From: a virus | Direction: 5' to 3' (one strand) | Length of the DNA: 26,482 nt | IMG/VR virus record: IMGVR_UViG_3300006754_000136 | Coordinates: 1 to 26,482 of that record | Part shown: positions 7,366 through 12,405 of the stretch, one piece after another | Numbering within the stretch: position 1 is the stretch's first letter | How the letters are laid out: every line of letters begins with the position of its first letter | Made by a program: the position numbers and the translations under genes | The notes under the pieces: model-generated | Told to the model about the DNA's origin: nothing | Databases searched by the model: none | What the model saw: only the letters and a program-made list of their open reading frames with translations

Positions 7366-7950
7366 ATGGCGTTTCAACCTGTAGGATCTGGAGCTTCTGT
7401 AGCCATAGCTGCTAATGCAGCAGTAGGTTATAGTGCTAAATTTGCTCATAAATCAGACACAATAAGAGTAATTACTGAAAATGCTTCTTGTCATGTTGCA
7501 GTTGGTAATACTGCTGTTGCTGCCACAACTGATTTTGTGGTTGGAAAAGATTCATCTTCAACCATTAATGTAGGAAGACCTTCTTCCCAAAGAGTAGTTG
7601 GAGTTTCAACTTCTGGAACAACAGTTACACTTTTCTTCCCAGAAGGTACAGGATGTCCATTTTTTGAAGGTCAAAAAGTATCACTAACAACAGACAGTGC
7701 TGCTAATAAGCATTGGGAATTTAGTGATTTAGCAATTGCCAGTATTAATCAATCTGCTGATGGTAATTGGGGTCCTGGTACAAAAGTTACAGTAACTCAT
7801 GATTATGGTATAGGTGCTGGTGCTACTGCTTTTACTGGTATAAATTACTCTGAACTAAGATCAAATCTTTTGGTTAGTGTGAAGGGAACTGCTACCCAAC
7901 CATATGGGGCATTATATTATCAACAAGTCCAAGTTTCCGGAGATGCCTGA
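7366..7950 (+). CDS. Beta-rich putative virion protein at the gp68 position
   Basis: A 194-aa protein rich in Gly, Ala, Ser, Thr and Val with alternating hydrophobic strands and almost no long helix. This points to a beta-structured virion protein, not a helical core protein. It occupies the T4 gene 68 position between gp67 and gp21 but does not resemble a prohead core component in composition. The run IRVITENASCHVAVGNTAVA followed by a TTDFVVG segment resembles the small beta domains often found in marine phage structural proteins. Its own late promoter precedes it, and its stop overlaps the protease start as TGATG, so the two are translationally coupled. A capsid decoration or head-surface role is inference; I know no characterised homologue. 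Confidence 0.85.
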   Translation: MAFQPVGSGASVAIAANAAVGYSAKFAHKSDTIRVITENASCHVAVGNTAVAATTDFVVGKDSSSTINVGRPSSQRVVGVSTSGTTVTLFFPEGTGCPFFEGQKVSLTTDSAANKHWEFSDLAIASINQSADGNWGPGTKVTVTHDYGIGAGATAFTGINYSELRSNLLVSVKGTATQPYGALYYQQVQVSGDA

Positions 7951-8600
7951 TGAAACTCATTAGAGAAGAAATAGAATCAGTTGACTTTATCGTTGAAGAA
8001 CGCAATGGTAAGAAGTCTCTGTACATAGAAGGTGTTTTCCTACAAGGAGATCTTCAAAACAGAAATGGAAGAATGTATCCAATGGACATCCTAAGAAAGG
8101 AAGTTGCAAGATACAATGAATCCAATATTGTTACTGGAAGAGCACTTGGAGAACTTGGTCATCCTGATGGTCCTACTGTCAATCTTGATAGAGTTTCCCA
8201 TAAGATTATTGCACTTAAAGAAAGTGGAAATAATTTTATAGGTAAAGCAAAGATTATGAATACCCCAATGGGTAATATTGCTAAGAACCTCATTGATGAG
8301 GGAGTCAAGTTGGGAGTTTCTTCAAGAGGAATTGGTTCATTGAAACCAACTCGTGAAGGATATAATGTGGTTAGTGATGACTTTATGCTATCAACTGCTG
8401 CAGATATAGTGGCAGACCCTTCTGCACCTGATGCTTTTGTCTCAGGAATTATGGAAGGAAAAGATTGGATCTGGGACGGTGGAGTCCTCAGAGAGCAACA
8501 AGCTGCTAAAACTTATAAGCAGATTAATACATTAGTTGACCAAAAACAACTAAATGAAAATAAGTTAAATATTTTTAATGAGTTCTTAAACTCATTGTAA
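7950..8600 (+). CDS. 21: Prohead maturation protease (gp21)
   Basis: Serine protease that degrades the prohead core and trims the capsid protein before DNA packaging. At 216 aa it matches T4 gp21 (212 aa). The catalytic His is H71 in ELGHPDGPTVNL and the nucleophile is in GVSSRGIGS (S124 or S125), the arrangement of herpesvirus-like prohead proteases. The N-terminal NRNGRMYPMDIL segment is also typical of the family. The ATG overlaps the preceding stop (TGATG), with GGAG 7 nt upstream inside the previous gene. The likely substrates encoded here are the gp67-like core, the gp22 scaffold, the gp23 precursor and possibly the two small proteins encoded at 11687-12183. Confidence 0.95.
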   Translation: MKLIREEIESVDFIVEERNGKKSLYIEGVFLQGDLQNRNGRMYPMDILRKEVARYNESNIVTGRALGELGHPDGPTVNLDRVSHKIIALKESGNNFIGKAKIMNTPMGNIAKNLIDEGVKLGVSSRGIGSLKPTREGYNVVSDDFMLSTAADIVADPSAPDAFVSGIMEGKDWIWDGGVLREQQAAKTYKQINTLVDQKQLNENKLNIFNEFLNSL

Positions 8601-9789: not shown

Positions 9790-11232
9790 ATGTTCCAATC
9801 CGAACAGTTGCAGGAAAAGTGGGCTCCTCTCCTAGACTATGAAGGTCTAGATCCGATTAAAGATAATCATCGTAGAGCTGTAACCGCTGTCCTGCTAGAA
9901 AATCAAGAAAAGTTTTTAAAAGAAGAAACAGCATTTAGTGCTGGTGGTATTAACCTTCAAGAAGCTGTCCCAACTAACGCTGCTAATGCTGCTGGCGCTC
10001 AGGGTGGTTTCGGTGGTGATGCTACTCCCGCTGGTCCAGTTGCTGGTTTCGACCCAGTTCTGATCTCATTGATCAGACGTGCAATGCCAAACTTGGTCGC
10101 ATATGACCTTGCTGGTGTTCAACCAATGAGTGGTCCTACTGGACTCATCTTTGCAATGCGCTCACGTTACACTTCACAGAGTGGAACTGAAGCACTATTC
10201 AATGAAGCAGATACACCATTCTCAGGTACAGATAAGGGTGATAACACCACACTGACCAGAGATTTTGCTGATCTTAACGCTGGTATTGGTACTGACACAC
10301 AAGCTGGTGACAATCCTTCCCTTCTTAACCCAACTGGTACTGCAACCTCTACTGCCTACAATGTAGGTCAGGGTATGCCTACTGGTGATGCTGAGAATCT
10401 ATATGGTTCTGGCAACTATGCCTTCAACCAGATGGCATTCTCCATTGAGAAGGTAACCGTTACTGCTAAGTCAAGAGCCCTGAAGGCTGAGTACTCACTA
10501 GAGCTTGCTCAGGACCTTAAGGCAATTCATGGTCTTAATGCAGAAGCAGAACTTGCTAACATTCTCTCCACTGAGATCCTCGCTGAGATCAACAGAGAAG
10601 TTATCAGAACAATCTATAAGGTTGCTGAGCAAGGTGCTGTTTCTAACACTGCTACTGCTGGTGTGTTTGACCTTGACATTGACTCCAATGGTAGATGGTC
10701 TGTTGAGAAGTTCAAAGGACTTCTATTCCAGATTGAAAGAGATGCTAATGCTATTGCACAAAGAACAAGACGTGGAAAGGGCAATATGGTCCTGTGCTCC
10801 GCTGATGTTGCTTCTGCACTAACAATGGCAGGTATCCTGGATTACACTCCTGCACTCAATGCAAACCTCAATGTTGATGATACTGGCAATACATTTGCTG
10901 GAACAATCAATGGTAAGTTTAAAGTCTACATTGACCCATATGCTGCTAACCTAGCTTCTGCTAATACAGCAACTAACTCAGGTAACCAGTATTATGTTGT
11001 TGGTTATAAGGGTTCTTCCCCTTATGATGCTGGACTCTTCTATTGCCCTTATGTACCTCTCCAGATGGTCAGAGCAGTGGATGATGGCTCCTTCCAGCCC
11101 AAGATTGGCTTCAAGACCAGATATGGTATTGTTGCTAACCCATTTGCTGAAGGAACAACACCAGGTCTAGGCAGACTTCATGTTAACAGCAACCGTTACT
11201 ACAGAAGAGTAGCTGTTAAGAATCTAATGTGA
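9790..11232 (+). CDS. 23: Major capsid protein (gp23)
   Basis: Main shell protein of the head, HK97 fold. At 480 aa it is near T4 gp23 (521 aa). Marker segments are LISLIRRAMPNLVAYDLAGV, QPMSGPTGLIFAMRSRY, SIEKVTVTAKSRALKAEYS, TRRGKGNMVLCS and the C-terminal KTRYGIVANPF. The N-terminal 65 residues carry a charged helical part that gp21 would remove; a cut near the Ala/Gly-rich stretch around residues 60-75 is likely but not proven. Codons are noticeably richer in C-ending forms than in neighbours, as expected for the most abundant protein. It has its own late promoter and is followed by a strong terminator. No gp24-like vertex gene follows, as is usual in cyanophages. Confidence 0.98.
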   Translation: MFQSEQLQEKWAPLLDYEGLDPIKDNHRRAVTAVLLENQEKFLKEETAFSAGGINLQEAVPTNAANAAGAQGGFGGDATPAGPVAGFDPVLISLIRRAMPNLVAYDLAGVQPMSGPTGLIFAMRSRYTSQSGTEALFNEADTPFSGTDKGDNTTLTRDFADLNAGIGTDTQAGDNPSLLNPTGTATSTAYNVGQGMPTGDAENLYGSGNYAFNQMAFSIEKVTVTAKSRALKAEYSLELAQDLKAIHGLNAEAELANILSTEILAEINREVIRTIYKVAEQGAVSNTATAGVFDLDIDSNGRWSVEKFKGLLFQIERDANAIAQRTRRGKGNMVLCSADVASALTMAGILDYTPALNANLNVDDTGNTFAGTINGKFKVYIDPYAANLASANTATNSGNQYYVVGYKGSSPYDAGLFYCPYVPLQMVRAVDDGSFQPKIGFKTRYGIVANPFAEGTTPGLGRLHVNSNRYYRRVAVKNLM

Positions 11233-11326: not shown

Positions 11327-11488
11327 ATGTTTTGTTTTTCAAAAATGAGTCGTACAGAACGACAAAAGAAAGTATTAGAAGTATATACTTACTGGCAAGA
11401 TAATCTCGAAAGAAGAATGGCTGCTGTTAATGCTGCTAAAGAAAAATTAGAAGATCAGATTGAAAGAGATATTGTAGTAGATAAATAA
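11327..11488 (+). CDS. Small helical hypothetical protein (53 aa)
   Basis: A 53-aa ORF starting MFCFSKMSRTERQKK. An internal ATG at 11345 would give 47 aa starting MSRTERQKK and may be the true start, because the first six residues are unlike the rest. The nearest ribosome-site-like run, AAGGAG at 11305-11310, is 16 nt from the first ATG and does not favour either start. The remainder is charged and predicted helical (YWQDNLERRMAAVNAAKEKLEDQIERDI). Its 3' end overlaps the next late promoter, GATAAATA. Function is unknown; the position after gp23 and the late promoter suggest a virion or assembly accessory protein. Confidence 0.6.
   Translation: MFCFSKMSRTERQKKVLEVYTYWQDNLERRMAAVNAAKEKLEDQIERDIVVDK
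11480..11487 (+). promoter_or_regulatory. Late promoter octamer overlapping the end of the 53-aa ORF
   Basis: GATAAATA (7 of 8) ends 17 nt before the ATG at 11505. The spacing is shorter than at the other late octamers and leaves a leader of only about 10 nt, so support is weaker. Confidence 0.45.
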
Positions 11489-11504: not shown

Positions 11505-11684
11505 ATGGCTTACCGTATAGAAAAACCTAGTATTATGCCTAGTGTAGGCACAGTCTACTATAAGGGTAGTAATGTATGGGATGAAACATTTGCTAATAGA
11601 AAGCTTTATGCTACTCAGGCAGCTGCTGAAGCAGAACCTTATATTTACAAGTGGGAAAATGCTAATATAGTAAATGAGGCTTGA
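11505..11684 (+). CDS. Small hypothetical protein (59 aa)
   Basis: A 59-aa ORF, MAYRIEKPSIMPSV and onward, with several aromatic residues (Tyr in particular) and an Ala-rich TQAAAEAEP segment. It looks like a small mixed alpha/beta domain without membrane or signal segments. It ends 2 nt before the ATG of the next gene at 11687, consistent with coupled translation. I do not recognise the family. Late promoter context points to a late, probably structural or assembly-related role (inference). Confidence 0.6.
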   Translation: MAYRIEKPSIMPSVGTVYYKGSNVWDETFANRKLYATQAAAEAEPYIYKWENANIVNEA

Positions 11685-11686
11685 TT

Positions 11687-11917
11687 ATGAAAAGTTTCTG
11701 GGATTTTCAAGAAAATTTAAATGATAGAAGACTAGAGTTGGCTCAAAAACAGAAAGCTCAGAAGCAATCTGCCGTGGAGAAGTCAAAAAAATCTAGACAG
11801 AAATTTGAAAAAGACGTAGCAGATGAACAAGAATCTAGAAATAAAAATCAACAGAAGGCAAGAGAAAGGGAAGAATTGAAGAAGGAAATAAAAAAAGAAA
11901 TTGAGGATGATAATTGA
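11687..11917 (+). CDS. Charged helical small protein with capsid-targeting-like N-terminus
   Basis: A 76-aa protein beginning MKSFWDFQE. This follows the pattern of the T4 capsid-targeting sequence MKTYQEFIAE (M-K-small-aromatic-x-acidic-F), the leader cleaved by gp21 from T4 internal proteins. The rest is almost entirely Lys, Glu, Gln, Arg and Asp with helix-forming spacing and no hydrophobic core, like an internal head protein that binds DNA. A TTG at 11681 is an alternative start but the ATG at 11687 gives the motif at the very N-terminus. The stop codon overlaps the next ATG (TGATG). The internal-protein role is inference from the motif, composition and gp23/gp21 neighbourhood. Confidence 0.7.
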   Translation: MKSFWDFQENLNDRRLELAQKQKAQKQSAVEKSKKSRQKFEKDVADEQESRNKNQQKAREREELKKEIKKEIEDDN

Positions 11918-12183
11918 TGAAATTCTCAACCTTTATGGAAGGTAAGAAGTGTCCACCAGGATTGAAATGGGATGCTAAGTTGAAAGATTGCGTTCCTTCT
12001 GGTAAAATATATGGCGGACGCTGGTGGGGTGGAGGACATCACCATCATCATAATGGAGAAAATGGGAATGGAAATGGCAACGGCAATGGTAATGGGTCCA
12101 CTAACGGTAATGGAAGTAGCAATGGCAATGGTGGCGGTAATGGTAATGGCGGTGGTAACGGTGGTGGCGGAAATGGTGGTTGA
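11917..12183 (+). CDS. Gly/Asn-repeat protein with His run and capsid-targeting-like N-terminus
   Basis: An 88-aa protein starting MKFSTFMEGKK, again close to the MKxFxxFxE pattern. A short head contains two Cys, C12 in KKCPPG and C25 in KDCVPS. Residues 33-45 are GGRWWGGG followed by five His in a row. From residue 46 to the end the protein is a low-complexity run of Asn-Gly, Gly-Gly and a few Ser/Thr, with no predicted fold. The His run and Cys pair could bind metal. The ATG overlaps the preceding stop and the gene ends just before a late octamer. I do not know a characterised homologue; a virion-associated role is inferred from its position. Confidence 0.7.
   Translation: MKFSTFMEGKKCPPGLKWDAKLKDCVPSGKIYGGRWWGGGHHHHHNGENGNGNGNGNGNGSTNGNGSSNGNGGGNGNGGGNGGGGNGG
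12054..12180 (+). repeat. GGN-AAY trinucleotide-pair repeat coding for Asn-Gly
   Basis: Imperfect tandem repeat of AAY-GGN codon pairs grading into GGN-GGN runs. Third bases vary between copies, so it is kept at protein level and is not a fresh slippage product, but it remains a likely site of length change. Confidence 0.8.
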
Positions 12184-12225: not shown

Positions 12226-12405
12226 ATGAAATTTTCCATCACTAAAGAAGGAATTGTAAACGATACTGAGTTATTCAATAATGATAGTACCACCCAACAA
12301 TACGTTAGAACTGCTGTCCATACTACTCTGGAAGAGTTGGGGTTTAAGGTAGAAGAAGAGTGGGAAATGGATGATGATTCAATTGAGATAACCGTCACAA
12401 AGTAA
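12226..12405 (+). CDS. Small acidic hypothetical protein (59 aa)
   Basis: A 59-aa ORF starting MKFSITKEGIVND. A central helix (QQYVRTAVHTTLEELGFKVEEE) is followed by an acidic turn and a closing beta strand DSIEITVTK, giving a plausible small alpha/beta fold. It is preceded by a late octamer and ends 1 nt before the next ATG. No ribosome site is evident. Family not recognised. Confidence 0.65.
   Translation: MKFSITKEGIVNDTELFNNDSTTQQYVRTAVHTTLEELGFKVEEEWEMDDDSIEITVTK

Follow-up and report, generated by a model that had tools for sequence, protein, structure and literature searches.

The closest described system for the locus discussed here is the capsid targeting sequence (CTS) of bacteriophage T4, typified by the peptide MKTYQEFIAE. 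According to the part of the source available to us (PMC9026906), the first 10 residues of the internal protein IPIII suffice for packaging, and the leader alone carries a foreign protein into heads. In IPIII, mutagenesis identified residues 4 and 7 as the main determinants of targeting and residues 8 and 10 as those of processing, with an Asp at residue 10 blocking processing and leaving targeting intact. The same text describes the T4 CTS peptide as head-specific and the internal proteins IPI-III as poorly conserved among related phages.

In cyanophages, the cytidylyltransferase T4-GC190 has been found in virions of S-SM1 (PMC3037559), and S-CBWM1 is cited for a virion nicotinamide mononucleotide adenylyltransferase (NMNAT) (PMC9602691), each as stated in the accessible portion of the respective paper. 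The accessible portions of the cyanophage virion NMNAT reports give no targeting mechanism, and in that of PMC3037559 neither “capsid target” nor “internal protein” occurs. A search by title and abstract, for which subscription journals were mostly out of reach, returned no paper on CTS-like leaders in cyanophages; “cyanophage” and “capsid targeting” co-occur in PMC9026906, and “capsid targeting” is also found together with “marine” in a few papers.

The window analysed here is the full extent, 26,482 bases, of the IMG/VR record IMGVR_UViG_3300006754_000136, which represents a cyanomyovirus. The nearest relative of its gp23-gp3 stretch is Prochlorococcus phage P-TIM68 (77% DNA identity across 65% of the query), whose gene order, i.e., terminase, sheath, tube, portal, prohead protease, scaffold, gp23, small genes, gp3, UvsY and UvsW, is kept. 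Two of the small genes, here named A and B, are situated between gp23 and gp3 (Table 1), with gp21, gp22 and gp23 immediately upstream in the order of P-TIM68 and with two further small genes between B and gp3. A preliminary description of this DNA had noted the resemblance of both N-termini to the T4 CTS, the position of the genes behind gp23 and the gp21 gene upstream; both reading frames and starts, as well as the two positional statements, are confirmed. It had also assigned the block to late promoters, and this assignment stands in part. Sites of the form [TAG]ATAAATA precede eight genes of the block by 25-43 nt at the motif level, including the one listed in Table 1, whereas TATAAATA at one mismatch is not enriched window-wide (82 found versus 74 expected); late promoters are thus suggested by placement ahead of genes and not by count. 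The TGA stop of A overlaps the ATG of B, GAGG lies 8 nt ahead of the start codon of A, and P-TIM68 gp110, the counterpart of the frame preceding A, matches phrog_24339. The gene after B (window 12226-12405) ends in VEEEWEMDD.SIE.TVT, as does a gene close behind a B-type gene on another locus (L013:3026-3409); given this common end, the pair may travel together.

Table 1. Features of the A/B region and associated head genes (positions refer to the window).
Feature	Position	Strand	Remark
Gene A	11687..11917	+	76 aa, Lys/Glu-rich single helix, start MKSFWDFQEN
Leader of A, first 10 codons	11687..11716	+	M1, K2, F4, F7 like T4 CTS; Q8, E9, N10 unlike
Gene B	11917..12183	+	88 aa: leader, two-Cys domain, Asn/Gly-rich tail
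Leader of B, MKFSTFMEG	11917..11943	+	T4 register minus one residue
Two-Cys domain of B, CPPGLKWDAKLKDCVP	11950..11997	+	Common to virion proteins S-CREM2 gp15 and SSCSM1_29
Asn-Gly repeat tail of B	12052..12180	+	Disordered by prediction
gp21-type prohead protease gene	7950..8600	+	Same location and type of sequence as the head maturation protease gp107 of P-TIM68
Presumed gp21 scissile site in gp23, LQE|A, residues 56-59	9955..9966	+	
Late-promoter-like GATAAATA	11480..11487	+	Before the 11505 gene, itself just before A
59-aa ORF preceding A	11505..11684	+	Counterpart of P-TIM68 gp110, likewise directly before the A-type gene

Protein A is predicted to form one continuous helix (residues 2-75, mean pLDDT 91), in agreement with the earlier view of a Lys/Glu-rich helical protein. 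The model of B, which is of low confidence, comprises a short leader helix, a small hairpin with both cysteines and the disordered Asn-Gly tail. The DNA-packing role once proposed for these proteins finds no backing in their net charge, which is nearly balanced in A (about +2) and about +3 in B. Against Pfam and PHROG, both proteins gave matches at chance level only.

Compared with MKTYQEFIAE of T4, A retains M1 and K2, is likewise aromatic at positions 4 and 7 (F4, F7) and differs at Q8, E9 and N10, while B has one residue fewer before the first phenylalanine, so that F3 and F6 are followed by M7, E8 and G9. The feature associated with targeting is therefore found in A and, one residue short, in B, whereas the feature associated with processing (position 8 hydrophobic, position 10 Glu) is absent from both: A ends in FQEN and B in FMEG, where the leader class described below has F[ILF]xEA. 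The initial expectation that A and B are cut after residue 9 or 10 finds no support, their processing residues departing from those of T4. A gp21-type protease, a gp22-type core and an LxE|A site in gp23 are all encoded in the window.

For a quantitative assessment, the pattern M.{1,3}[FY]..[FY].{0,3}E was set before any virion list was seen. Among the ATG starts of window frames of at least 40 aa, it picks out A and B only. Column-shuffled N-termini of S-CREM2 match at a rate of 0.0091 per protein, at which the chance of two matches in the 32-34 window genes is P = 0.034-0.038; the window by itself is therefore weak evidence, and the case rests on comparative data.

Such data are available from two cyanophage virion proteomes. 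The S-CREM2 virion list holds 52 of 219 proteins (accessible part of PMC10665884), and five of the six S-CREM2 proteins matching the pattern are among these 52 (P = 0.0032), namely the SAM hydrolase gp6 (MKDFDSFLEE), the kinase gp14 (MKRFDAFLTEE), the B-type gp15 (MNFSEFNES), gp136 (MQTFSMFFSED) and the cytidylyltransferase gp154 (MKNFSSFLTEA); the sixth, outside the virion list, is CP12 (MSNFTPYSEYFE). Three alternative patterns gave P values from 0.0006 to 0.013, the pre-fixed one being that reported. Two further virion proteins, gp13 (MKDLHSFLTEQ) and gp12, have leader-like sequences uncounted by the fixed pattern. In gp12, a virion-detected Cas9-like protein (L018:7704-10313, minus strand), RFASFMAEA stands at residues 18-26; codon 17 is CTG, which means that there is no usual start at this place. 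In S-SCSM1, where 48 of 282 proteins are labelled virion in the GenBank record by our count (the accessible text of the paper gives 45), the pattern matches three annotated starts, two of them virion-labelled (P = 0.076, not significant alone). These are the NMNAT SSCSM1_91 (MKSFLQFLKEA) and SSCSM1_31 (MPFKNFLWDEA), both virion, and the unlabelled SSCSM1_30 (MKTFKQFMSES). Pooled over both phages, seven of nine matches are virion proteins versus 100 of 501 proteins overall (P = 2.7e-4).

The virion lists also bear on B directly. Searched against the 219 S-CREM2 proteins, window B (40 residues) has the virion protein gp15 as its sole match (E = 4e-4), while A has no homologue in this set. SSCSM1_29, a 517-aa virion protein, opens with MAKTCKPGYYWCYTDKKCKKIP, i.e., a B-type domain with no leader. 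As judged from sequence similarity, two phages thus have a B-type domain among their virion proteins, preceded by the leader in one of them and leaderless in the other.

Two other sequence features of virion proteins were seen along the way. The 69-aa virion protein SSCSM1_93 of S-SCSM1 (MK867354, 91626-91835) has a leader-like C-terminus, RTFKEFLEYIE. A stretch resembling the mature N-arm of gp23 (GGFTG...GP[VT]AG[FY]DP) is shared by several other proteins, most of them small, i.e., S-CREM2 gp160 (L020:30343-31236), SSCSM1_97 (L277) and proteins of loci L113, L118, L158 and L193, two of which are published virion proteins.

The leader recurs widely on cyanophage enzymes. At annotated P-TIM68 starts, the pattern matches three of 246 genes, one of which, gp057 (MKQFDNYELTT), is not CTS-like in look; besides gp111, discussed below, the sole CTS-like start is that of the cytidylyltransferase gp158 (MKSFTSFFTEA). 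Relatives of gp158 were collected from IMG/VR (best 80 of 214), and 62 distinct sequences were aligned. They share the leader MKxFxxF[IFL]xE, with M1 and K2 in 57 of 57 sequences (five rows start at residue 3 and read MNF instead of MKxF), F4 and F7 in all 62, and E10 in 60 of 60. Among the same best 80 of 214, position 8 is I, F or L and position 11 is A in 42/59, and positions 5, 6 and 9 are variable (2.1-2.8 bits). The loci were picked by whole-query similarity, which favours a common leader but does not force it. The invariant positions of the cyanophage leader coincide with positions 4, 7 and 10 that are important in T4.

When the leader alone was used to scan IMG/VR, at least 120 stretches with 123 ORFs were returned. 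Among the matches listed, the median start lies 6 codons past a stop, 121 of the 123 ORFs are 60 aa or longer or are truncated by the contig end, and T4-like core genes are present on 89 of 120 contigs. The family tally was made on 116 of these ORFs, the seven below 60 aa being left out, and Pfam assigns, among the matches listed, 42 to the cytidylyltransferases, eight to DUF5661, three to zeta/AAA kinases, two each to DUF6267, DUF6321 and GNAT, and one each to DUF192 and WYL_2. As a control, the corresponding DNA pattern applied to T4 picks up ipII and ipIII among seven matches. A DNA pattern run on six phage records gave six matches versus three in the reversed control, too few for use. Taken together, these sequence comparisons support the existence of a CTS-like leader class in cyanophages that marks virion proteins. 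Separately, the hypothetical protein gp61.1 of T4 (NC_000866, 18966-19130, minus strand, gene 61.1) opens with the CTS-like MKTFKEFIKE, and a 138-aa leader ORF at L117:3736-4149 (plus strand; MKTFKEFILEA...YHGTPESSADKI) is reminiscent, on visual inspection only, of an ADP-ribosyltransferase.

Relatives of A are difficult to detect. A tblastn search with A in 50,697 phage records gave no match even at E = 1; since P-TIM68 gp111 is part of that collection and aligns with A by eye, and since its IMG/VR relatives also align with A, tblastn is blind to this low-complexity helix. From IMG/VR, only four loci were returned for A, two of them identical to it. P-TIM68 gp111 and the L004 protein each combine A and B, as opposite ends, in a single chain of ~375 aa. 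This chain also has a middle domain, missing from the window at the A-B place, and retains the leader of B internally (MKNFTSFMEASKT). Eleven internal B-leader copies in fused A-B genes retain ATG, and a purine-rich stretch, AGTAGGAAGAAT, precedes the internal ATG in several of these genes (L001:14548 and ten similar loci); from both features, B may also arise by internal initiation.

B-type leaders are more readily found, as in L011 and L012 (MKTFKQFNEQ), L013 (MKSFNQFIKE), and L127 and L181 (MKDFNKFIEEA). Stand-alone B-type proteins with full leaders occupy the gp23-gp3 slot, directly before gp3, in L197 (MKAFYQFIEEA) and L213 (MKEFDRFIEEA), where the processing feature is present (FIEE|A). 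At one and the same spot, L234 reads MKKFSNFMDEA versus MKNFTSFMEA in P-TIM68; this difference, together with the full site in relatives occupying the slot of B, indicates that the spacing drifts within the family. In 35 distinct occurrences of the B domain, M.{1,2}F..F stands just before the domain in 16 and is missing in 19. In 15 of these 19, the ORF opens with the domain itself (e.g., MAKKCPPG), and most of these ORFs are long and modular; the remaining four are PSSM2_204, S-H34, L158, which has the leader at its own N-terminus instead, and L245, with the near-leader MKSLNTFIDEG. Homologues keeping the body without the leader, which had been named in advance as evidence against the idea, thus do exist and include the virion protein SSCSM1_29, side by side with the 16 that retain it; domain and leader are separable modules. 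The domain pattern behind the 35 occurrences misses L011, S-B68 and S-CREM2 gp15, which were hand-picked for the B alignment, and in this alignment the row of L004 is trimmed, with an incomplete leader.

Several long modular, Lys-rich ORFs (L247, L229, L236 and others) begin with a B-type domain followed by domains known from virion proteins, e.g., SSCSM1_29. The idea that long modular relatives such as those of L247 and P-TIM68 gp159 are polyproteins diced by gp21 at [LIVM]xE[AG] found no support in the density of sites over 211 P-TIM68 ORFs (117 observed versus 106 expected); the best long protein, gp155 (5 versus 0.86 expected, 0/300 shuffles), is not compelling after 211 tests.

These findings allow different readings of A and B to be weighed. 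The leader class might be real and the signal in A and B lost, with F..F a relic or a chance occurrence and both proteins kept for other reasons, such as external decoration or head-tail joining. The missing processing residues, the modest window-only probability and the leaderless B-type domains in virions are in line with such a loss; conservation of the leaders argues against it. In the A family (A and seven relatives, a small set of related sequences), F4, F7 and E9 are invariant in all eight sequences, and invariant positions amount to 8/13 in the leader block versus 17/63 elsewhere (P = 0.02). In eight B-family members, M1, K2 and both phenylalanines are invariant, and the short register of B recurs in the cytidylyltransferase of S-SZBM1 (MRFRQFIIEA). 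We consider loss of the signal unlikely.

Still less probable is that A and B are associated with the tail or neck and that the leader serves late virion proteins at large as a docking peptide. B does lie near gp3, and in L011, L012, L013 and L181 the B-type gene comes after a large gene of coiled-coil or tail-fibre-like type; however, the tagged proteins of known chemistry are enzymes (cytidylyltransferase, SAM hydrolase, kinase) and not tail parts, not one of the 24 structural proteins named for S-CREM2 matches the pattern, and head specificity is reported for the T4 peptide in the available text of PMC9026906. Equally improbable is that the leader has another role and its carriers are abundant late proteins co-purifying with particles, for although the S-CREM2 and S-SCSM1 authors, in the accessible text, name contamination or carry-over as a possibility for their virion preparations, cytidylyltransferase/NMNAT is reported, in the portions available, from virions of S-SM1, S-SCSM1, S-CBWM1 (as cited) and S-CREM2, and the invariant leader positions are those important in T4.

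We favour a reading, which we consider reasonably probable, in which this cyanomyovirus makes A and B as late proteins and loads them into the interior of its head by means of a variant CTS. The preliminary description had likewise proposed internal head proteins; the leader class as a mark of virion proteins and the homologues of B in two virion proteomes speak for it, whereas canonical processing residues are missing. Mechanistically, two aromatics three apart on a short leader helix would attach the protein to the gp22 scaffold core while the shell is still open, and A and B would thereby come to share the head with the DNA. Across the wider class, the peptide ends in a gp21 site ([IFLM]xE|A) and is probably cut off; in A and B, whose endings depart from this site, cutting may be inefficient, occur one residue earlier or not take place at all. 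A would be a charged helical rod, and B, with its two-Cys hairpin and disordered Asn-Gly tail, would probably fill or contact the inner head. That the proteins dock to the core, reside inside the head, are cleaved and pass to the host is inferred, and injection of A and B would follow by analogy with T4. SSCSM1_30, which has a full leader and no virion label, counts against this reading, as do SSCSM1_29 and PSSM2_204 with a B-type domain and no leader and the lack of an A homologue among the 219 S-CREM2 proteins.

On a broader scale, cyanophages probably use the leader to pack proteins for delivery into the host. We give an even chance to the more general proposition that the T4 capsid-targeting code serves cyanophages and their relatives as a general cargo system, in which one ten-residue tag, MKxFxxF[ILF]xE|A, is swapped among unrelated proteins that are packed in the head and delivered with the DNA, A and B carrying a shortened variant and being maybe targeted yet uncut. 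The proposed carriers are the NMNAT-like cytidylyltransferase, SAM hydrolase, APH-like kinase, Cas9-like nuclease, GNAT, zeta/AAA kinase, DUF5661, DUF6321 and the two-Cys domain of B. If true, a T4-like head tag would supply a targeting mechanism for the NMNAT-like enzymes in purified cyanophage virions, candidate injected proteins of ocean T4-like phages could be listed from sequence alone, and what phages deliver to Prochlorococcus and Synechococcus at infection would become testable by an assay existing for T4.

With regard to known systems, A and B resemble IPII and IPIII of T4 in being small phage-encoded proteins with a short N-terminal peptide that has M1, K2 and aromatics at 4 and 7 (in B one residue short), and in the presence of a gp21-type protease, a gp22-type scaffold and gp23. 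Unlike IPII and IPIII, their bodies are unrelated, as judged by the chance-level PHROG and Pfam matches, and the T4 residues 8 and 10 are replaced in A and out of register in B. T4 Alt, an ADP-ribosyltransferase with an N-terminal propeptide that is packed in the head and ejected, offers an analogy for the leader-bearing cyanophage cytidylyltransferase, SAM hydrolase and kinase; the enzymes and the propeptide sequence differ, and injection is a feature of Alt. In the giant phages SPN3US and phiKZ, propeptides of ejection proteins are likewise removed after Glu by a gp21-type protease, but they are mostly much longer, several exceeding 100 residues, in comparison with about 10 here. Finally, the cytidylyltransferase/NMNAT enzymes S-SCSM1 ORF91 and S-CREM2 ORF154 share the leader class of A and B and occur in virions, as does T4-GC190; in contrast to these enzymes with their folded domain, A and B are small and non-enzymatic in appearance.
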